From positions 1-61,258 of the forward strand of contig WALT01000026.1 of assembly GCA_015522695.1 (NCBI GenBank): a stretch of 61,258 nt of DNA. The letters are read 5' to 3'. Position numbers and translations under genes: made by a program. The stretch is from Nitrososphaerota archaeon (GTDB lineage Archaea; Thermoproteota; Nitrososphaeria; Conexivisphaerales; Conexivisphaeraceae). Below, in pieces: positions 6,176 to 16,597 of this stretch. The notes beneath the pieces were generated by a model. That model saw only the letters and a program-made list of their open reading frames with translations. It had not been told where the DNA came from and did not search any database. Each line of letters opens with the position of its first letter. The stretch's first letter is position 1.

Positions 6176-7418
6176 TTGTTGCTCAGATCTAGGCTGGCAT
6201 CGTTAGAGGTCGGCGACGGACTGCCGGTGAGGGTGATGGGGGCAATAAACGTGAGCCCCGAGTCGTTCTACACGGGTTCGATCGCCAGGAGCGTCGATGA
6301 TGCCGTGGGGATTGCGAGGAGGATGGTGGAGGAAGGTGCTGACCTGATAGATGTAGGGGGGATGTCGACTGCTCCCTATAAGAGGGGGTTCGTCCCCGAG
6401 AGTATCGAGGCTGAGAGGGCGATACCGGTCGTGAGGACGATAAAGGAGGAGCTCGGCGTCCTCATATCCATAGATACCACGAGGGCCAGCGTTGCTGAGG
6501 AAGCGCTCGACTCCGGCGCAGATTTGATCAACGATGTGTCAGGTTGCATGGCGGATTCCATGATGCCCAAGGTCGCAGCCTCCACGAGCACCTCGATGAT
6601 ACTCGCGACGAGGGATGATGAGGCGGAGATCGTCGATGGTCCCTTGGAGACGGTGAGGCACAACCTGAGGCGAAGCCTCGAGATCTGTGCTGAAGCCGGT
6701 GTGAGGATGGAGGACATCGTCATCGATCCCGGTATAGGCTTCTACAGGGATGTAGATGTACCTTGGTATGAATGGGATACGACGGTTCTCGCTGGGCTTT
6801 GGAGGCTTCTGGTGCTCCTGAGGCCCATATGCGTCGGCGTCTCGAGGAAGTCGTTCATCGGCGAGATATTGGGGTTGGAGAGACCAGAAGATAGGCTCAT
6901 CGGCTCGAGGGTGGCTGAGGCCGTAGCGGTCGTGAACGGTGCCCACATCGTTAGGACACACGACGTGGCCGAGACCATTCAAGCTGTGAGGATGGCCGAG
7001 AGGATGAGGAGACGATCCATCGTCGTGAACCACGGCGGCATCGATGTGGTGGATTTCTCCGGTGGCCTGGAGATGAGCGATGTGGAGCTGCTGGCTGAAC
7101 TCTTGGGAAGCGAGCCGGAGGGTGTTAGGGCGATGTCCCCCAAAGGGCGATTTCCGGATATTGCTCATCAGGGGGCTTCCCAGGGTTCTCGCCCTGATAT
7201 TGAAGCAGGAGATGCTCGCCTCCGGAGGGGAGTTAGCCACGCCTCGTGAAACCCTTCTCGGAGGATTGGAGCCCGTCGACGTGTTGCTCATGGGCACCGT
7301 GAGGCAGTGTCGAGGGGTCTCTCGAAGGCTTTCCAAGATGAGGATCCCTACGCTGGAGGCGAAAGATCTCCCCACACCGACGATCATGGCGGAACTCCTG
7401 CGATCTATATGCGGCTAG
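6176..7418 (+). CDS. folP: Dihydropteroate synthase with C-terminal DHPS-associated domain, frameshifted
   Basis: Residues from the TTG at 6176 (alternatives TTG 6179, ATG near 6236) carry the full TIM-barrel DHPS set: GAINVSPESFYTG, DVGGMSTAP, SIDTTRASVAEEAL, LINDVSG, VIDPGIGF and VGVSRKSFIG. This frame stops at 7249 in a non-family tail. In the +1 frame from about 7146 the sequence continues as GDFRILL, then LILKQEMLASGGELATPRE and VDVLLMGTVRQ, ending at 7418. That segment resembles the domain found at the N-terminus of some bacterial DHPS proteins. Deleting one C from the CCCCC run at 7137-7141 joins the frames through AMSPKGDF. Either a sequencing or assembly indel, a real frameshift, or programmed slippage at CCCCCAAAGGG. 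Joins pteridine pyrophosphate to p-aminobenzoate or a related arylamine. Confidence 0.8.
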
Positions 7419-7765
7419 TTCTCCATCCCCATGAGCTTCATCTCCGGATACATCATCTCCTCATCATACTTGAGGATGGCCCTGGCCCTGATGCCGGCGT
7501 ACTCGACCTCGACCTCGGCTTCCAACATATCCCCTGAGAGCTCGCAGTAGCCGAACGCGTTTATCCTCCTCCTGATCTCCTCTCGTGATATCTTGACCTC
7601 GATGTGTACAACGTGAGGTTGAAGACCCACGGCCTCCTCGATCGCCCTCTCAAGTCCTCCAGCCGTCTCAACAGTCACCGGAGTTCCCACGAACTGGTGA
7701 TAGAGAGCCCCCAACTTTATCCCGACCTCGAACGCGGCCATCTCCCCTTCAGTAGGCTCCCTCAA
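7415..7765 (-). CDS. mptD: Dihydroneopterin aldolase, MptD-type (DUF372)
   Basis: About 116 residues, the usual size of archaeal MptD. AAFEVGIKLGALYHQFVGTP is the family hallmark, followed by ERAIEEAVGLQPHVVHIEV and a C-terminal YPEMKLMG. MptD cleaves 7,8-dihydroneopterin to 6-hydroxymethyl-dihydropterin and glycolaldehyde, supplying MptE. Start is either the TTG at 7765 or the ATG at 7742, the latter directly before AAFE. The stop overlaps the end of the frameshifted folP reading by 4 nt, tail to tail. Divergent from mptA with a 31-nt gap containing AT-rich DNA. Confidence 0.88.
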   Translation of the reverse strand: MREPTEGEMAAFEVGIKLGALYHQFVGTPVTVETAGGLERAIEEAVGLQPHVVHIEVKISREEIRRRINAFGYCELSGDMLEAEVEVEYAGIRARAILKYDEEMMYPEMKLMGMEN

Positions 7766-7796
7766 CCTCGAGAACCCTTAATTCCCATGCTGATTA

Positions 7797-8660
7797 ATGC
7801 ATCGGGTCATGTCCGATATAAACGACGAACGTCCCATGGTACCTCTACATGTGGACTGGGCTGGATTTACGAGGCTTAACCTACCTGTGACCGTGAACAT
7901 GGGAGATGAGGAGGTCAAACTTCTTGCTTCATTCAGGGCCCTCGTGGACCTCCCTCGGGCGATGAGGGGGATACATGCATCGAGAACTTATCAAGCCATG
8001 ATGGAGGCCTCACGCCTCCCCGGGGGCCTACACGAGATATGTTGCCGGGCCTGTAGACTCCTCCTCGAAAAACACGACTATTCCAATCGTTCCATGGTAC
8101 TAGCGAAGGCGAGCATACCGGTGAAGTCGACGAGTCCAATTACGGGGCAGGAGTCCTACTCCACCGTCGTGCTCCTGGGCGGTGCCAGGCTCGACAGGGA
8201 GACGTGCGAGGCGCGCCTCGGCGTCGAGGTGATAGGGCTCACGACATGTCCGAGCGCCCAGCGGAGCATCAGGGAGGCGCTCCGGGGCGATTCCAGGAGC
8301 CCAGCCCCGACCCATACGCAGAGGGCCAGGGTGAGGATAACCGTGCAGGTCCCTGAAGGCATGATGGTGGATCCACTCGAGCTGGCCAGAATTGCTTGGA
8401 ACGTGACAAGTTCACCCGTCTATGGAGGTCTGAAGAAGTCGGATGAGCTGAGGCTGTTGCTCGATGCCCTATCGAGGCCGAGGTTAGCCGAGGACGTCGT
8501 CAGGGAAGCGGCCAGGAACGTTGCGGAGGATCTCGGATTACCTGGATGGGCGAGGATAAAGGTGAGGTACGAGAGCCTCGAGTCGGTGCACGAGCAGGAC
8601 TTCATCGCGGAGATGAATGTCACGGCTGAAGAGGCCAGAGGAAATTTGGATAACAGTTAG
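7797..8660 (+). CDS. mptA: GTP cyclohydrolase, MptA / GCYH-IB type
   Basis: 287 residues. LPRAMRGIHASRTYQ and the GLTTCPSAQ loop identify the metal-dependent type IB GTP cyclohydrolase family (MptA/FolE2), which opens GTP to the dihydroneopterin 2',3'-cyclic phosphate in archaea. The metal-binding His (RGIH) and Cys (TTCPS) are present. Start ATG 7797; a second in-frame ATG at 7809 is possible. First step of the pathway continued by the mptD, mptE and folP genes immediately upstream. An enzyme opening the cyclic phosphate (MptB) is not seen in the window. Confidence 0.88.
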   Translation: MHRVMSDINDERPMVPLHVDWAGFTRLNLPVTVNMGDEEVKLLASFRALVDLPRAMRGIHASRTYQAMMEASRLPGGLHEICCRACRLLLEKHDYSNRSMVLAKASIPVKSTSPITGQESYSTVVLLGGARLDRETCEARLGVEVIGLTTCPSAQRSIREALRGDSRSPAPTHTQRARVRITVQVPEGMMVDPLELARIAWNVTSSPVYGGLKKSDELRLLLDALSRPRLAEDVVREAARNVAEDLGLPGWARIKVRYESLESVHEQDFIAEMNVTAEEARGNLDNS

Positions 8661-8685
8661 GTGCCCCCATGATACTCATCATAGT

Positions 8686-9984
8686 GTGGGCTGGGACGCG
8701 GAGAGCCTGATCACGAATGTCGGTGAAATCGAGGCGAGGTACTACGATATCGTGACGTTCAGATACTCGGGAAAGGAGTCGGCCGTCAGGGGAGGGGAGA
8801 TGGAGGAGCACAGATGGAGCTCGGAGGCCCTGGCGGCCAGGGTGCTCTCGAAGGGCTATGGCGTGGCCTCCATCGACAGGATAGGACCAGCAGAGGCTAG
8901 ATCTGTGATCGAGAGGGCGGCCAAGCTCGCGGAGATGTCGTCCACATCCTCGCTGGCTCCAGCGGAGATCGAGAAGGGGAGCAGGGAGATGAGGGCCGAC
9001 GTGAATCTCGAGGCCCTGGCGGGGCTCGCCAATGAGCTATACGAGGCCGCGAAGGGGAGGCTCTCGACCATGGCGGAACACATCGAGAGCGTCGTCGACA
9101 TGGAGTCCAGGGAGAAGACGATAGCATCCTCGGAGGGTTCCTCGATAATCGAGCGCATCGACTCCCTCACAGCCATAATATACGCTCTGGGCCCTGCCGG
9201 TACGGTGAGGGCAGCGATCTCGTTCGGTGGCTCATGTCCTCAGAGGATCGACGTGGAGGAAGCCATCGACAGGCTTGTGGAGATAGCCTCCTATCAGAGG
9301 AATTTCAGACAGCTCTCCCCCTTCTATGATGGGCACAGGTTCAAGGTGGTTCTGGACTGGGAATGCTCGGGTGCCTTGGCCCATGAAGTGGCGCACGCCC
9401 TAGAGGCCACGAGCTACAGATACGGGCTCGTGAAGGTCTCTCAAAGATCCTTCGTCGATCATCCAGGTCTTCCAGGCGGTTATGGCCTCCAATTCTGGGA
9501 TGATGAAGCCGTCCGTGCTCCGAAGAAGAGGATACTCTCTCCGGGTGGGAAGGAGCTCCTGCACACGAGGGCCACCGCTCTGAGCGGTGGGAAGCCAGGG
9601 AATGCTCGAGGTCTATCGTATAAGCCGAGGCCCTTGATGAGCAACGTGTACATGGAACCCGAGGATTGGGACGAATCGGAGATCGTGGAGGATACATCGA
9701 GAGGTATGATGTTCATCGGGCTGGAGGAGGCCAGACTCGACACATCGACGGGGGTGATTGTCATGAAGCCTCAGGTCGCCGTGTATTTCGAGAGGAAGGG
9801 CGAGGTGATGATACCCATCGCCGATGCGGTGCTCGTCGATAGGCTGAGCGAGATCCTCGCCGTCGCGGACGCAGCCTCCAGGAGGGTGAGGATGAGGCCA
9901 AATATGGAGAGGGGATATCCGGTCTCCGAAGGAGGCCCAACGTCCAGGCTCTCGGGTGCCAGGATAGAGAAGAGATCGATCTAG
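8686..9984 (+). CDS. TldD/PmbA-like metallopeptidase, divergent
   Basis: About 432 residues from the GTG at 8686; the frame is open further upstream (ATG at 8617), but that would overlap mptA by 44 nt. Middle and C-terminal parts follow TldD: ALAHEVAHALEA, GGYGLQFWDDEAVRAPKKRIL, a PRPLMSNVYMEP block and IPIADAVLVDRLSEIL. TldD usually has HExxxH; here the motif is HExxH (residues about 233-237), one residue shorter. The conserved Cys near the C-terminus, a metal ligand in E. coli TldD, is absent: the matching stretch reads MERGYPVSEGGPTSRLSG. TldD/TldE process peptides such as microcin precursors in bacteria; the archaeal substrate is unknown. No TldE-like partner gene is adjacent. Confidence 0.72.
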   Translation: MGWDAESLITNVGEIEARYYDIVTFRYSGKESAVRGGEMEEHRWSSEALAARVLSKGYGVASIDRIGPAEARSVIERAAKLAEMSSTSSLAPAEIEKGSREMRADVNLEALAGLANELYEAAKGRLSTMAEHIESVVDMESREKTIASSEGSSIIERIDSLTAIIYALGPAGTVRAAISFGGSCPQRIDVEEAIDRLVEIASYQRNFRQLSPFYDGHRFKVVLDWECSGALAHEVAHALEATSYRYGLVKVSQRSFVDHPGLPGGYGLQFWDDEAVRAPKKRILSPGGKELLHTRATALSGGKPGNARGLSYKPRPLMSNVYMEPEDWDESEIVEDTSRGMMFIGLEEARLDTSTGVIVMKPQVAVYFERKGEVMIPIADAVLVDRLSEILAVADAASRRVRMRPNMERGYPVSEGGPTSRLSGARIEKRSI

Positions 9985-10009
9985 TCAGATGATCCAAAAG
10001 GTATATCGA

Positions 10010-10110
10010 GCTAGCCTCCGGTGGAGCCTATAGGCGGCTGCATTCACGATCAGGAACCCCACTTCCAGCCACGGCTCCAGCGGAGACCTGCACGATCCCT
10101 CGATGACCAC
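10010..10110 (-). pseudogene. Fragment of an APC permease gene, inverted relative to its neighbour
   Basis: Read on the minus strand, 10013-10047 is identical over 35 nt to 11252-11286 of the permease gene downstream (coding NAAAYRLHRRL). The similarity extends to about 10060 through GGTTCCTGAT with a 12-nt in-frame deletion, then more weakly to about 10110 (GTGGCTGGAAG). It is best explained as a remnant of a second permease copy in opposite orientation, or of a local inverted duplication. The rest of the gap 9985-10198 shows only the promoter of the next gene. Confidence 0.6.
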
Positions 10111-10157
10111 GGAGGCCTTCTACACTTGATCTTTCACATCACATCGCTGAACGCTCC

Positions 10158-10170
10158 CTAAATATTTTTG
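10158..10170 (+). promoter_or_regulatory. TATA-like promoter element
   Basis: CTAAATATTTTTG lies about 30 nt before the TTG start at 10199, the spacing expected for leaderless archaeal transcription. Confidence 0.5.
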
Positions 10171-10198
10171 GGGATCACACATCAACCCCGATCTCGGG

Positions 10199-11803
10199 TT
10201 GGGGAAAATAGGGTTCTGGGAGGCCCTCTCGATAGGGATTGGAGGAATGGTGGGCGGCGGGATATTCGCCGTGCTTGGACTCACCATCCTCCTTGCACGC
10301 GGTGCTGCCCCGTTGGCCTTCCTCATAGCTGGGATTGTCGCACTGCTGACGGCGTATTCGTATGCTAAACTCTCGGTCAGGTACCCGAGTGAAGGGGGGA
10401 CCATAGAATATCTCGTCAGGGCGTTCGGTGGAGGGATAACGTCGGGCTGGTTGAACGTGCTATTGCTCGCCAGCTACGTGATAATGCTCTCGCTATACTC
10501 TTACACTTTCGGGAGCTACCTGTCCAGCATATTCCCCGGAGGGGAATCCTATCTTGCCAGGAGCACACTAGCCCTCGTGGTGATCGCCGCCTTCACCGGC
10601 CTGAACATGCTCGGTGCTAGAGCGGTGGGAAGGTCTGAGGATGCACTCGTGGCCTTCAAGGTGAGCGTGCTCCTCCTGTTCTCAGCCCTCGGCGCTCTGG
10701 TGGCCAGCGTGGCCAGGCTCTCACCAAATAGATGGACCCCACCTCTGGAGATAATGGCCGGCGGCCTCGTGATCTTCCTCGCATATGAGGGCTTCGAGCT
10801 CATAGCCAATACAGCCCATGACGTGAGGGAGCCGGAGAGAACGCTCCCGAAAGCCTTCTATGCCTCCGTTTCGTTCGTCATGGCCCTCTATGTGGTCGTC
10901 GCGATCGTGGCTGTAGGGAACTTGACGTTGAATCAGGTCATCCAGGCTAGGGACTATGCACTCGCCGTGGCTGCGATGCCGTTCATGGGCGAGGCCGGCT
11001 TCATATTGATAGGCATCGCAGCAGCAGTCTCGACCGCTTCGGCGATAAATGCCACCCTCTATGGAAGCGCTAGGGTCAGCTACATCGTCGCTAGATACGG
11101 TGAGCTGCCTAGATCTATGGGAAGGATCTGGCACGGGGCCTACGAGGGACTTCTCGTCATCGCCGTCCTCACAGCCGCGTCGGTGCTCTCGCTGGACCTC
11201 GAGGAGATATCGGTGGCTGGAAGCTTGGGGTTCCTGATGGTGTTCGCGAGCGTGAATGCAGCCGCCTATAGGCTCCACCGGAGGCTGGGTTCATCGAAGT
11301 TCATGCATGTCGCTGGCCTAGTCGCTTGCATAGCTTCCGCCGTCGTCTTGGCGGTGCGCTCATATGAGACCAGCCCCGTCCAGCTCCTCATCGCCTTCGC
11401 CCTCATCATCGGTTCAGGGTTCGTGGAGGTGATATACAGGACCATCACGGGTAGGAGCATAAGCGAATATGTGGACTGGAGGCTCAAGGAGAAGCTGGAG
11501 CTGGTGAGGTCATGGGGAAGCTGGGTCGACGATTTCGCCAAGGTCGTGAAGGAGGAGCTCGAGGCCCTGGAAGTACATCTCGTCGGAAGCGTCGCCCGTG
11601 GTGAGACCCATAGAGCCCATGATGTGGACCTGCTCGTGATATCTGAGAGGCCGCTGAGCTCTTCGGAGGCTGCCAGCAAGGCGGATGAGTTAGCCTCGAG
11701 GATGGGCCTGCCGAAGCATCACCCTGTGCATCTACACTTCTCCAGACCGGAGGAGAAAGGGATATGGTTGAGGAAGAGCGTCAAGAGCAAGAGGATAGCC
11801 TAG
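10199..11803 (+). CDS. APC-family amino acid permease fused to a C-terminal nucleotidyltransferase (MNT) domain
   Basis: 534 residues. Residues 1-420 form an APC-superfamily permease with about twelve hydrophobic segments, opening with ALSIGIGGMVGGGIFAVLG (the conserved substrate-binding helix 1). After a short charged linker the C-terminus carries GSVARGE (from residue 463) followed by HDVDLL with D475 and D477. This is the GSxxxG...D-x-D signature of minimal pol-beta-type nucleotidyltransferases. The start is TTG at 10199. The two parts are in one uninterrupted frame. APC permeases often have C-terminal USP or TrkA-type domains, but I do not know this combination. The domain may nucleotidylate the transporter or a partner, or simply bind nucleotide. 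A fragment of a related permease lies inverted just upstream. Convergent with the next gene, overlapping by 4 nt. Confidence 0.8.
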   Translation: MGKIGFWEALSIGIGGMVGGGIFAVLGLTILLARGAAPLAFLIAGIVALLTAYSYAKLSVRYPSEGGTIEYLVRAFGGGITSGWLNVLLLASYVIMLSLYSYTFGSYLSSIFPGGESYLARSTLALVVIAAFTGLNMLGARAVGRSEDALVAFKVSVLLLFSALGALVASVARLSPNRWTPPLEIMAGGLVIFLAYEGFELIANTAHDVREPERTLPKAFYASVSFVMALYVVVAIVAVGNLTLNQVIQARDYALAVAAMPFMGEAGFILIGIAAAVSTASAINATLYGSARVSYIVARYGELPRSMGRIWHGAYEGLLVIAVLTAASVLSLDLEEISVAGSLGFLMVFASVNAAAYRLHRRLGSSKFMHVAGLVACIASAVVLAVRSYETSPVQLLIAFALIIGSGFVEVIYRTITGRSISEYVDWRLKEKLELVRSWGSWVDDFAKVVKEELEALEVHLVGSVARGETHRAHDVDLLVISERPLSSSEAASKADELASRMGLPKHHPVHLHFSRPEEKGIWLRKSVKSKRIA

Positions 11804-12327
11804 CCCTTCAGAATCCCCTTCTCCTTCAGATATCCCTCTAGCTTTGGCCAGAACTTCGGGAAGTCCCTGTAGGTCCTCGTGGAGACCACACCTCCATCCT
11901 CCACGAACGGTTCATCCACAACTATACCTCCAGCATTCCTCACATCGTCCCATACACCCCTGGATCCCGTGAGCTTACGGCCCTGGGCGAGCCCTGCGCT
12001 GACGATTATCCATGCAGCATGGCATATCGAGACCACGACCCCTCCTCCTCTAAGTGTATCCCTGGCTAGCTCCAGGACCTCCCCATATCTCCTCAATTTA
12101 TCCGGAGCATAGCCTCCCGGGAAGACCACGAGGTCCCATCTCTCGTCCAATGCATCCGATACCAGGATCTCCGGCTCTACGCTCATACATCCACCCTTGC
12201 TCTTCATGGACCTCATCTCCACGCTCGCTATCCGCGTCTCAAAGCCCATCTCCCTAAGCCTATAGTAGCTGTAGTAGACCTCTATCTCGTCAAAGAAATC
12301 ATATGTCACCAGGAGGGCTTTCCCCAT
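11800..12327 (-). CDS. DJ-1/PfpI family protein
   Basis: 175 residues. DLVVFPGGYAPDKLR and VVSICHAAWIIVSAG place the nucleophile Cys in the typical PfpI/DJ-1 nucleophile elbow, followed by the LTGSRGVWDDVRNAGG stretch. Members act as glyoxalases/deglycases, chaperones or amidases; the short SICHAA motif matches the archaeal PfpI-like group. TATA-like CGTTTTTAATAG on this strand lies about 28 nt before the ATG. Reaction cannot be settled from sequence. Confidence 0.88.
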   Translation of the reverse strand: MGKALLVTYDFFDEIEVYYSYYRLREMGFETRIASVEMRSMKSKGGCMSVEPEILVSDALDERWDLVVFPGGYAPDKLRRYGEVLELARDTLRGGGVVVSICHAAWIIVSAGLAQGRKLTGSRGVWDDVRNAGGIVVDEPFVEDGGVVSTRTYRDFPKFWPKLEGYLKEKGILKG

Positions 12328-12377
12328 GTCATCTCATTTCATGCTTGAAGGCTATTAAAAACGATTGTCCTGGTCAG

Positions 12378-12395
12378 GGTCTGGTCATACAGACC
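12378..12395. repeat. Inverted repeat in the DJ-1/aconitase intergenic region
   Basis: GGTCTG-GTCATA-CAGACC, a perfect 6+6 dyad. It lies about 18-25 nt upstream of the TATA element of the DJ-1 gene. It could be an operator; no other copy was seen. Confidence 0.3.
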
Positions 12396-12545
12396 TTCCA
12401 TGAAAACGTGGCTCTACCTTCAGTCGCTGAGAGGGCTCCATCCGATAGGGCGGGGAGGAGGTCGCACATGTACGGATGAAGGTCGAATATAGAACTGTGC
12501 TAACATTGGAGGCTCTTCAACTATCGACGATATCGATCTAGCTAA

Positions 12546-12555
12546 CTTTTATATC
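12546..12555 (+). promoter_or_regulatory. TATA-like promoter of the aconitase gene
   Basis: CTTTTATATC, centred about 31 nt before the ATG at 12582; predicts an almost leaderless transcript. Confidence 0.55.
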
Positions 12556-12581
12556 TGATTCCGACATCCCTCAGCCCAGAG

Positions 12582-15290
12582 ATGTCCATAGATCTATCTA
12601 AGACGAAGGAGTACATCGACACGTATAAGGGCAGGGCAGCCATCTGGAACATAAAGAAGCTCGAGGAGCAGGGGATCGAGGTTTCCAGGCTCCCCTATTC
12701 CATCAGGTACCTGTTGGAGAACATGCTCAGGAACTACGATGACGAGGTGGTGACGCAGGGCGATGTAGAGGCGGTGGCCAAGTGGAAGGAGAAAATCGGC
12801 AGGGAGATACCCTATATGCCATCCCGCGTGATACTCCAGGACTTCACAGGAGTTCCGGCCGTCGTGGATTTAGCCGCCATGAGGGATGCGATGAATGAGA
12901 TGGGTGGAGACCCTCTTCTAGTCAATCCCGTGGTCCCAGCCGACCTCGTGATAGATCATTCAGTACAGGTTGACTACTTCGGCACGAACTATGCCCTCAA
13001 GTTGAACATGAAGAAGGAGATGGAGAGGAATAGAGAGAGGTATGCATTGCTCAAGTGGGCCCAGAAGGCCTTCAAGAACTTCAAGGTGGTACCGCCAGGC
13101 AAGGGGATAATACATCAGGTCAACGTCGAGTATCTGGCTCAAGTAGTACATCTGAGGGAGTTCGGGGAAGGGCTCGCTGCATTTCCAGATACAGTGATAG
13201 GTACGGACTCCCACACCACGATGGTCGCAGGCGTGGGCGTTCTCGGTTGGGGAGTGGGAGGGATAGAGGCAGAGGCCGTCATGTTGGGCCAACCTTATTA
13301 CATCCCGATACCGGAGGTCGTCGGGGTTAGGCTCCTGGGCGAGCTACCAGAGGGAGCCACGGCCACGGACCTCGTCCTGACCGTCACCGAGATCTTGAGG
13401 AAGAAGGGCGTTGTGGGCAAGATAGTCGAGTACTTTGGACCAGGAGTGAGGAAGCTCAGCGTTCCTGATAGGGCTACCGTGTCTAACATGGCACCGGAAT
13501 ACGGTGCCACAACCGGCTTCTTTCCGATCGATGAGGCCACCCTCGATTATCTGAGGCTGACGGGCAGGGATGAAAGGCACGTGAGGCTCGTCGAGGAATA
13601 CGCCCGTAATGTCGGCTTGTTCGCCGAGCCTGGAGCGCCCGAGCCCGAGTACAGCGAGGTGGTCGAGATCGACATGAGCAAGGTCGAACCTTCGATAGCT
13701 GGACCGAGCCATCCAGAGGATAGGATATCGCTCAAGGACGTGAGGAAGAGGACACGCGAGATGATCGAGAGATATCTCGAGGACGCCAAGAAGAGAGGTC
13801 TGTCCGTCGATCCCAACGTCAGCGTACCTGTGATCATCGATGGGGTTAAAGGAGAAGTGGGACATGGAAGCGTGATACTTGCAGCGATAACGAGCTGCAC
13901 CAATACATCAAATCCAAGCCTCCTGATAGGTGCTGGGCTCTTGGCGAAGAAGGCGGTCGAACGTGGGTTGATGGTCAAGCCATGGGTCAAGACCAGCTTG
14001 GCCCCAGGCAGCAGGGTCGTGGTCGAATATCTGAAGAAGGCAGGTCTACTCCCATATTTGGAGGCCTTGAAGTACCATGTAACGGGCTTCGGTTGCACCG
14101 TGTGTATAGGCAACAGCGGACCCCTACCCAAACCGGTCGAGGATGCCATCAGGGACAATAACCTCTATACCACCAGCGTATTGAGCGGCAACAGGAACTT
14201 CGAGGGCAGGATACATCCGCTCTCCAGGGGGAATTTCCTCGCCTCCCCGATACTCGTCGTGGCCTATGCATTGGCCGGGAGGATAGATATGGACTTCTAT
14301 AACGAGCCCATAGATCATGATCCCAATGGACAACCCGTTTACCTAAAGGACATATGGCCCAGCATGGGTGAGATCGAGGAGGCGATGGAGAAGGCCCTCT
14401 CCCCCGAGATGTTCGAGGAGAAGTATTCCGACATCTTCAAGGGCGAGGAGGAATGGGAAGGTCTAGAGGCCCCTGATACACCTCTATATCGGTGGGATCC
14501 GAAGTCCACATACATCAGAAGGCCTTCATTTCTCGAGAATATAACCCCCGAGCCCCCAAGGATGAGGGATATCGAGGGCGCCAGGATATTGGTCCTGCTC
14601 GGGGACAGGATAACCACCGACCACATATCGCCGGCAAGTGCAATACCTTCGGACAGCCCGGCCGGCAAGTATCTGATGGAGCACGGAATAAAGCCGGAGG
14701 AGTTCAATACATATGGATCTAGAAGGGGGAACCATGAGGTCATGATGAGGGGGACGTTCGCCAACATCAGGCTGAGGAACCTTTTGGCTCGAGACAAGGA
14801 GGGCGATTGGACGGTGCACATGCCGGATGGCCATTTCATGACGGTGTTCGATGCTGCGATGAAGTACATGGAGGAAGGGGTACCGGCCATAGTCATGGGC
14901 GGCAAGCAATACGGCATGGGCAGCTCGAGAGACTGGGCCGCTAAGGGGCCATACTTGTTGGGGGTGAAGGCCGTGATCGCTGAGAGTTTCGAAAGGATAC
15001 ACAGGAGCAACTTGGTGGATATGGGGGTGCTGCCGCTTCAATTTGAGGAAGGTCAGAATTGGAGGACCCTTGGGCTTACCGGTAAGGAGACGATCGATAT
15101 AGAGGGGATAGAGGAAGGACTCTACCCGAGGAGGAAGCTAAGGGTCAGGGCTAGAAGGGATGATGGAACCGAGGTCACCTTCGATGTCACGGCTAGGCTC
15201 GATACACAGATCGAGGTCGAATACTACACAAATGGCGGCATATTGCCTACCGTGCTCAGGAAACTCTACAGGAAGAGCAAGAAAGACTAG
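12582..15290 (+). CDS. acnA: Aconitate hydratase (AcnA type)
   Basis: 902 residues, full length for the AcnA/IRP-type monomeric aconitase. [4Fe-4S] ligands are visible: Cys439 in TSCTNTSNP and Cys505 plus Cys508 in FGCTVCIGNSGP. The N-terminal SIRYLLENMLRN, the middle IGTDSHTTMVAGVGVLGWGVGG and the C-terminal swivel-domain GMGSSRDWAAKGPYLLGV are all intact. Interconverts citrate and isocitrate. No other TCA-cycle gene except a homocitrate-synthase-like gene about 2 kb downstream is in the window. AcnA-type enzymes in archaea occur mostly in aerobic or respiring lineages. Downstream gene follows after 40 nt and has its own TATA box. Confidence 0.96.
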   Translation: MSIDLSKTKEYIDTYKGRAAIWNIKKLEEQGIEVSRLPYSIRYLLENMLRNYDDEVVTQGDVEAVAKWKEKIGREIPYMPSRVILQDFTGVPAVVDLAAMRDAMNEMGGDPLLVNPVVPADLVIDHSVQVDYFGTNYALKLNMKKEMERNRERYALLKWAQKAFKNFKVVPPGKGIIHQVNVEYLAQVVHLREFGEGLAAFPDTVIGTDSHTTMVAGVGVLGWGVGGIEAEAVMLGQPYYIPIPEVVGVRLLGELPEGATATDLVLTVTEILRKKGVVGKIVEYFGPGVRKLSVPDRATVSNMAPEYGATTGFFPIDEATLDYLRLTGRDERHVRLVEEYARNVGLFAEPGAPEPEYSEVVEIDMSKVEPSIAGPSHPEDRISLKDVRKRTREMIERYLEDAKKRGLSVDPNVSVPVIIDGVKGEVGHGSVILAAITSCTNTSNPSLLIGAGLLAKKAVERGLMVKPWVKTSLAPGSRVVVEYLKKAGLLPYLEALKYHVTGFGCTVCIGNSGPLPKPVEDAIRDNNLYTTSVLSGNRNFEGRIHPLSRGNFLASPILVVAYALAGRIDMDFYNEPIDHDPNGQPVYLKDIWPSMGEIEEAMEKALSPEMFEEKYSDIFKGEEEWEGLEAPDTPLYRWDPKSTYIRRPSFLENITPEPPRMRDIEGARILVLLGDRITTDHISPASAIPSDSPAGKYLMEHGIKPEEFNTYGSRRGNHEVMMRGTFANIRLRNLLARDKEGDWTVHMPDGHFMTVFDAAMKYMEEGVPAIVMGGKQYGMGSSRDWAAKGPYLLGVKAVIAESFERIHRSNLVDMGVLPLQFEEGQNWRTLGLTGKETIDIEGIEEGLYPRRKLRVRARRDDGTEVTFDVTARLDTQIEVEYYTNGGILPTVLRKLYRKSKKD

Positions 15291-15329
15291 GAGCAACATC
15301 CTTATTTATCCACAGCTTCGATTCACATC

Positions 15330-15827
15330 GTGTCGAGATATCCGAACGCGATACTCGAAGTACTCGGGACGACGGTCAGCTTCCGCATAAGCCAGGGCAA
15401 GGTCAAGCAGGTTCCCAGCGCTGGTGAGACGGAGGGCTTGGCCTTGGCCGAGGCCCTTGAGAGGACGATAGAGTCCAGGAAGAGGCTCGTGATACTCGAG
15501 GCGATGGGACTCAAACCAGAGGATAGGTTGAGGGCCAGGGTGCTCTTGGATGCGCTCAAGGAAGCCGTGGAGTCGACCGTCGGCGAGAAACCGATCTGCA
15601 TGCCGCCCTCTTCCGCCTCCGGCCTCGTGTCCTGCAGCTTTGAGGCCTATTATGAGGACTTCGGGGAGTTCAAGAGGAGGCTTGTAGCCAGTATAGAGAG
15701 GAGCGTGTATACGAGGCTCGACAACCTGACGGTCACCGAGAGGATAATCGCCTCCACAAAGCTCAAGCTGCTAATCCTGGCGGCCGTCGCGATCGTCGCG
15801 GCCGCCCTACTCCTGGTTAGCCTTTAA
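15330..15827 (+). CDS. Tail-anchored protein of unknown function
   Basis: 165 residues, starting with GTG 25 nt after a TATA-like CTTATTTATC (15301-15310), hence leaderless. The cytosolic part (1-140) is mixed alpha/beta with no family I recognise. It ends in one hydrophobic helix (LLILAAVAIVAAALLLVSL) right at the C-terminus with a Lys just before it, giving a tail-anchor topology with the N-terminus in the cytoplasm. It lies between aconitase and a VTT-domain protein, 14 nt upstream of the latter. Codon use is like its neighbours, so a real gene is likely. Confidence 0.65.
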   Translation: MSRYPNAILEVLGTTVSFRISQGKVKQVPSAGETEGLALAEALERTIESRKRLVILEAMGLKPEDRLRARVLLDALKEAVESTVGEKPICMPPSSASGLVSCSFEAYYEDFGEFKRRLVASIERSVYTRLDNLTVTERIIASTKLKLLILAAVAIVAAALLLVSL

Positions 15828-15841
15828 TCGAGGTCTGTGCG

Positions 15842-16597
15842 TTGGTCGATGTGCGGGAGTGGGCGAAGCCAGCGGGCATCCTAGGCCTCGTCACGGCGGC
15901 ATCTCTATTGATATATATCTACTATCCTCTGGTCGTCGATTTTCTGAACGAAGCCCCAGCATCCCTCAGGGATGCCTCCCTGTTCCTCCTCGGTTTTTTC
16001 GGGGCTGCAAGCGTCATCGTACCGGTGCCCTACACGGCCTTCATCTTCACGCTCTCATCCGTCTACCAGGGCCTGAACGCTGTAGAGACGGCGGTGTTCG
16101 TAGGGGTGGGCTCGGGGCTCGGCGAGGTCACCGGTTGGATCGTCGGCAGGAGCGTGGAGAGCGTGCTCAAGACCTACAGGAGTCCAGGATACTCCGCAGC
16201 CCTCACGGTGATAGAGGATAGGGCTAGGAGATCCAAGCTCCTGGTACCCTTGCTCGTGTTCATCTTCGCCCTAACCCCACTTCCGGATGACCTCATATTC
16301 ATAGCCCTGGGTACGCTCAGGTATCCTCTGAGGATAGCTCTACCCTCCTCTATGGCTGGGAAGATAATCATGATCTATCTGCTCGTGGAGATGGGGAAGA
16401 TCCTGGGATGGGCAACGGGCGGGATAGGTCCAGGGATGAGCATCACGGTCGCACTTGTAGTTATAGCGGCGTTCTACATCCTCCTCGAGCTCGTAGCTAA
16501 TAAGATGGGGAGCTTCGGAGGAAGGGTTAATATCCCCCTTGAACGAAACAGAATCCATGACCGACGGTCCCATAAGGCTGACGGTCCTCGTCGATAA
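15842..16597 (+). CDS. VTT-domain (DedA/SNARE-associated-like) membrane protein
   Basis: 251 residues from a TTG start. Hydrophobic segments at about 15-32, 44-66, 80-100, 135-155, 165-185 and 195-218. The re-entrant-loop region GSGLGEVTGWIVGRS and FALTPLPDDLIFIALG with the conserved Pro/Asp match the VTT/DedA family, proposed to move lipids or support proton-dependent transport. The last 30 residues are hydrophilic and overlap the start of the next gene by 41 nt, so that gene's promoter lies inside this coding region. Confidence 0.78.
   Translation: MVDVREWAKPAGILGLVTAASLLIYIYYPLVVDFLNEAPASLRDASLFLLGFFGAASVIVPVPYTAFIFTLSSVYQGLNAVETAVFVGVGSGLGEVTGWIVGRSVESVLKTYRSPGYSAALTVIEDRARRSKLLVPLLVFIFALTPLPDDLIFIALGTLRYPLRIALPSSMAGKIIMIYLLVEMGKILGWATGGIGPGMSITVALVVIAAFYILLELVANKMGSFGGRVNIPLERNRIHDRRSHKADGPRR

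Follow-up and report, generated by a model that had tools for sequence, protein, structure and literature searches.

Some transporters are known to carry cytosolic sensor domains as fusions. In archaea, APC permeases fused to a universal-stress-protein (USP) domain have been described (PMC12159084). MntA, the minimal nucleotidyltransferase (MNT) of a HEPN/MNT type VII toxin-antitoxin system, binds two Mg ions through three acids (D39, D41, and D71), and its GSx10DxD motif is essential (PMC7641770). Here, a window of 61,258 nucleotides (the whole stretch of DNA analyzed, contig WALT01000026.1 of assembly GCA_015522695.1, from a Nitrososphaerota archaeon) was found to carry a gene joining an APC permease to a minimal nucleotidyltransferase (NTase) domain. 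The initial annotation did not know this pairing as a described system, an impression that stood: no description of an APC–NTase fusion was found in the open-access literature, the words "permease" and "transporter" are both absent from a survey of the HEPN superfamily (PMC3710099), and no precedent for an NTase domain as the cytosolic sensor of a transporter was found in the literature searched.

Gene and domain architecture

The fusion gene occupies positions 10199..11803 of the plus strand (534 aa; TTG start at 10199, TAG stop ending at 11803) and, as first annotated, is uninterrupted, all 534 codons being open with no internal stop when the sequence is read. An AT-rich, TATA-like box (aaatattttt, 10160..10169, plus strand) was read directly ∼34 nt 5′ of the TTG codon; the position of this putative promoter element suggests that the gene may give rise to a near-leaderless archaeal transcript. 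On the plus strand, the fusion gene is preceded by a TldD/PmbA-type gene and by one for a FolE2-type GTP cyclohydrolase; on the minus strand, a DJ-1/PfpI gene (11800-12327) stands tail to tail with it. An aconitase gene follows in the neighborhood. Positions 7000-16000 of the window contain no Rfam matches.

Residues 4 to 415 (10208..11443, plus strand) form an APC permease of the LeuT-fold, ApcT-like type, the original assignment being upheld by agreement among PF13520, TIGR00909, and alignment to the ApcT structure (3gi9). In profile searches, PF13520 covered at least residues 4 to 359 (E 1.4e-30, 107 bits; cut-off 27), TIGR00909 matched with E 1.4e-49, yet under its curated cut-off, and residues 3 to 424 aligned with solved ApcT/MJ0609 (E 9e-65). 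Lys154 (10658..10660, plus strand) aligns with an ApcT position occupied by Lys in 3gi9 but by Ala in 3gi8, which we take to be the TM5 lysine linked to proton coupling in that transporter. Conservation of the permease core is very high, with both Lys154 and IFLAYEGFEL (residues 192–201) present in 88/88 aligned fusions. The end of TM12 and the linker helix (residues 406–440; 11414..11518, plus strand) contain E410, D426, and L429, which are kept in archaeal and bacterial fusions alike. An unfused APC permease paralogue, 34% identical, was also observed in the genome of the window (G000:C25:83127-84377, L002; 466-aa frame).

A minimal NTase domain follows at residues 441 to 534 (11519..11800, plus strand), as delimited by PF01909, AlphaFold2, and Foldseek. 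A pol-beta-type NTase had been proposed from GSVARGE together with D475-x-D477, and this identification is borne out by a Pfam scan in which PF01909 matched residues 445 to 514 above its curated cut-off (E 1.8e-9, 38.3 bits against 21), as well as by the spacing of G463-S464 (11585..11590, plus strand) and of the metal-binding Asp pair D475-V-D477 (11621..11629, plus strand), which reproduces exactly the GSx10DxD of MntA-type MNTs (PMC7641770). Fold prediction of the C-terminal region, which the initial annotation had suggested as a check, returned an NTase fold (AlphaFold2, mean pLDDT 87.7) whose best solved match in Foldseek is the MntA antitoxin (E 8e-4, probability 1.00); further top matches were 2rff, 1no5, and 1ylq, with moderate TM-scores of 0.42-0.51. 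The C-domain is thereby confirmed as a minimal NTase of the pol-beta type in which GSx10DxD is intact. The third metal-binding acid is missing from the window protein, its position, as assigned by alignment with other members and MNTs, being taken by H511 of H511-L-H513 (11729..11737, plus strand). Because MntA uses three acids, it cannot be taken for granted that the window protein is catalytic, although the residue at this position bears more on catalysis than on membership of the fold family.

Recurrence and ancestry of the fusion

When the C-domain was used as query against 398 genomes of the phylum, 13 other genomes were found to encode it as the tail of a ∼540-620 aa reading frame, and many encode it as a stand-alone protein of ∼115-125 aa. 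Aligned over their full length, the long frames all consist of an APC permease followed by the NTase. GTDB genomes were then scanned with the alignment, giving 466 relatives of which the best 80 were kept; the C-domain is present at 79 of these best 80 loci, a proportion that is no measure of how frequent fusion is among all relatives, since the ranking favors fused sequences. The loci derive from archaea and bacteria, nearly all of thermophilic lineages. Archaeal record titles include Desulfurococcales, Pyrodictiaceae, Acidilobaceae, Archaeoglobales, and Hydrothermarchaeota, and bacterial titles include Aquificota, Thermodesulfobacteriota, Thermotogota, WOR-3, and others; these organism names are the titles of records that are mostly metagenome bins (L141, L115, and L134 being likely mis-binned), and the sequence sets sample the proteins that best match that of the window.

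The search for the same architecture in relatives was thus productive, and recurrence of the two-domain frame in 13 phylum genomes and at 79 of the best 80 GTDB loci argues that the fusion is not due to chance. It also bears on an artifactual origin, by which a chimeric assembly or a missed stop would have joined two genes. With the architecture shared by all these loci, including that of an isolate (Thermodesulfatator autotrophicus), and with the frame free of internal stops, an artifact has negligible probability, and assembly chimerism in particular is ruled out by the recurrence. Phage MT836925.1 was considered as a full-length fusion and rejected, since its 408-aa permease ends ahead of the NTase region. 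Two other permease arrangements were observed. In a Ferroglobus MAG, the fused gene is immediately preceded by another APC permease-like frame (L130:1-1644). Genomes of the same class as the window encode ∼785-809 aa APC permeases (L004, L005, L006, L008, L009, L010, and L014) whose long C-terminal region is not the NTase domain but may be of USP type.

A maximum-likelihood tree was built from the permease part and rooted on unfused relatives, its root position depending on the choice of outgroup; in it, all fusions formed one clade (98/95). So did the bacterial sequences (100/95), whose clade is nested within the archaeal members, adjacent to the lineage of the window. A tree of the C-domain only, built on few columns, likewise contained one bacterial group (support 99). 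Unfused bacterial relatives have permeases 39-53% identical to that of the window. Within the fused clade, a Thermodesulfatator MAG (L109:4860-6287, L155) has a permease from which the C-domain is gone, the linker helix running into a stop (LDWKLKERELRKKASEI); as judged from its place in the tree, this is a secondary loss of the domain, so that the C-domain is dispensable at least in that MAG. The simplest history to be read from the sequences would begin with a single fusion that spread among archaea; bacteria would then have acquired it in one transfer, the active site being lost once, at or close to that event.

The bacterial C-domain is relaxed but maintained. Where permeases are 85-95% identical, median C-domain identity is 46% in bacteria versus 80% in archaea. 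C-domain dN/dS, taken pairwise, has a median of 0.32 among bacteria and 0.34 among archaea, with none >1 among usable pairs, which are not independent of one another; values below 1 indicate that the bacterial domain is maintained under purifying selection.

Archaeal and bacterial active sites

The alignment of 88 fusions provided an archaeal set of 54 members and a bacterial set of 33, the former including one sequence titled as a WOR-3 bacterium (L141) that groups with archaea by sequence. The contig of this sequence carries an archaeal-type fusion with the motif intact and is likely mis-binned. Strict GSx10DxD was found in 53/54 archaeal versus 0/33 bacterial members, so that conservation of the GS motif and Asp pair in homologues, on which the initial annotation had made its NTase claim depend, was observed in archaea and failed in bacteria. 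Residue by residue, archaeal members exhibit G463 in 54/54, S or G at position 464 in 54/54, D475 in 53/54, D477 in 54/54, and H513 in 53/54, whereas bacterial members retain D475 in 0/33, D477 in 4/33, and H513 in 0/33. H508 and P509 persist in most bacterial members (29/33 and 31/33). At position 511, an acid occurs in 29/54 archaeal members, and 24/54, the window protein among them, have His.

Despite loss of the motif, the bacterial domain is recognizably the same. Comparison of bacterial and archaeal C-domain profiles gave 100% probability (E 1e-39, 129 columns), and a bacterial C-domain model (pLDDT 85.7) had as its best match the Sulfolobus NTase 2rff (E 7.6e-3, probability 1.00). PF01909 matches 38/38 archaeal C-domains but reaches E 0.1 or better in only 7/24 bacterial ones, and the bacterial NTase domain is therefore easily overlooked by plain annotation.

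These patterns bear on what the domain does. A passive domain, contributing only folding, oligomerization, or heat stability, with enzymatic residues that have no present role in transport, would accord with the kept fold and missing active site of 33/33 bacterial members, with the faster evolution of the bacterial C-domain, and with its one loss. Such a domain is decidedly unlikely in view of the archaeal members, in which G463, D475, D477, and H513 are near-absolute across 54 sequences whose C-domains otherwise drop to ∼35% identity, a degree of conservation that is hard to explain other than by ligand binding or catalysis.

Conversely, the archaeal domain could be an active nucleotidylyltransferase that places AMP or UMP on a Tyr or other residue, either in the cytosolic loops of the permease or on a soluble partner, the modification turning transport on or off in the manner of MntA acting on HepT. 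This accords with the conservation of GSx10DxD, H513, and, in the 29 archaeal members that have it, the acid at 511, given that the motif is essential in MntA. We nevertheless consider an active transferase unlikely: the third acid is His in the window protein, as in 24/54 archaeal members overall, the flanks of 79 fused loci are devoid of HEPN and other MNT genes, and bacteria hold the domain without the active site. Tyr300, a candidate acceptor, was rejected as an auto-AMPylation site; the position is Tyr in 48/54 archaeal members but in 0/11 close unfused relatives, bacteria mostly having Phe there, and with 3 changes in archaea and 2 in bacteria counted on the tree, it ranks only 51 of 161 positions and is not distinctive. 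Retention of the domain in bacteria after loss of the whole active site further indicates that catalysis is not its sole role.

Genomic neighborhood

HEPN-type partner genes in relatives, which the initial annotation had suggested looking for, did not materialize: among 1009 genes flanking 79 fused loci, 0 HEPN-like ORFs or further MNT genes were detected. Nor does any gene family stand beside most fused loci, the best non-self family occurring at 16/79 in scattered positions. Stand-alone relatives of the C-domain directly adjoin HEPN-like genes and the fusions do not, so that the fused domain looks like an MNT removed from its HEPN pairing. The genome of the window has two HEPN genes, each near an MNT-type gene and neither near the fusion. 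G000:C11:2179-2798 (L145, L150) holds a stand-alone HEPN-MNT pair, the HEPN gene coming first and the MNT gene having a GSx11DxD-like motif; at G000:C17:7988-8818 (L146, L148), the second HEPN gene lies near an NTase gene (139- and 189-aa frames, minus strand). Elsewhere in this genome, a 538-aa frame (G000:C12:12746, L151) has an NTase-like start and an apparently kinase-like end.

A membrane-tethered antitoxin, for which the permease would be a mere anchor while the domain neutralized a HEPN toxin encoded elsewhere, might be suggested by the HEPN-adjoining stand-alone kin and by the presence of two HEPN genes in the window genome. It is very improbable, as both of those genes lie near MNT-type genes of their own and none is near any fused gene.

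Discussion

The gene product would be an ApcT-type, probably proton-coupled, amino-acid importer whose cytosolic C terminus is a captured minimal NTase domain, related to the MNT of HEPN-MNT pairs and serving as a permanently attached regulator of transport. Archaeal members, including that of the window, most likely bind Mg-NTP through GSx10DxD; the domain would then pass its nucleotide state to the permease and may also transfer NMP to the permease or a partner. After the single transfer into thermophilic bacteria, the active site would have been lost and the domain retained for control or scaffolding, as a non-catalytic (pseudo-NTase) module. Regulation of transport is favored by two observations taken together: strict archaeal conservation of the NTP-binding residues amid ∼35% identity speaks for a ligand or a reaction, and bacterial retention without those residues speaks for a non-catalytic role as well. 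The linker residues E410, D426, and L429, kept in both groups, also count in favor of a regulator, whereas H511 in place of the third acid, the fast evolution of the bacterial C-domain, and the loss in one MAG count against it. On balance, we judge an importer with a cytosolic NTase regulator, nucleotide-responsive in archaea and a pseudo-NTase in bacteria, to be slightly better than an even prospect. That the domain is a built-in NTase switch, a working transferase in archaea that became a pseudo-enzyme regulator after the single bacterial transfer, with nucleotidylylation or NTP sensing controlling uptake, is a tentative possibility. The initial annotation had proposed regulation by AMP/UMP transfer or by nucleotide binding; this is partly borne out, in that the NTase domain and its conserved fusion are upheld, whereas His511, flanks without HEPN or MNT genes, and bacterial domains without an active site weigh against AMP/UMP transfer.

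The family constitutes a natural experiment through which the function of the domain can be asked directly: on the same permease, the domain is intact in archaea, dead in bacteria, and lost from one bacterium, while the relatives outside the family are unfused. It also illustrates that plain annotation can miss such domains.

Among described systems, ApcT (MJ0609) shares with the window protein the 12-TM APC core and the lysine corresponding to K154 (mutated to Ala in 3gi8), but the solved 444-residue construct stops where the NTase domain of the window protein starts. Unfused bacterial APC permeases (∼430-460 aa, e.g., Rhodococcus WP_113684437.1) are up to 53% identical to the permease part, do not have the C-terminal domain, and fall outside the fused clade. 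APC-USP fusions are, like the window protein, archaeal APC permeases with a cytosolic C-terminal domain; the USP domain is unrelated, however, those proteins have no NTase, and the window protein has no USP match in a Pfam scan. MntA has in common with the C-domain the exact GSx10DxD and the NTase fold, and is its best Foldseek match; it differs in being a separate protein beside its own HEPN toxin, whereas the window domain is transporter-fused with no HEPN neighbor, and His occupies what is likely its third-acid position. Among stand-alone archaeal MNTs, AF0614 (1ylq) is the solved structure with the best profile match (E 6e-7). These proteins group apart from the fused domains (SH-aLRT 100) and have Glu at the third-acid position (PFEIH/PFEFH), unlike the His of the window protein, but the H-P-x-x-x-H stretch is common to the fused domain and its stand-alone kin.
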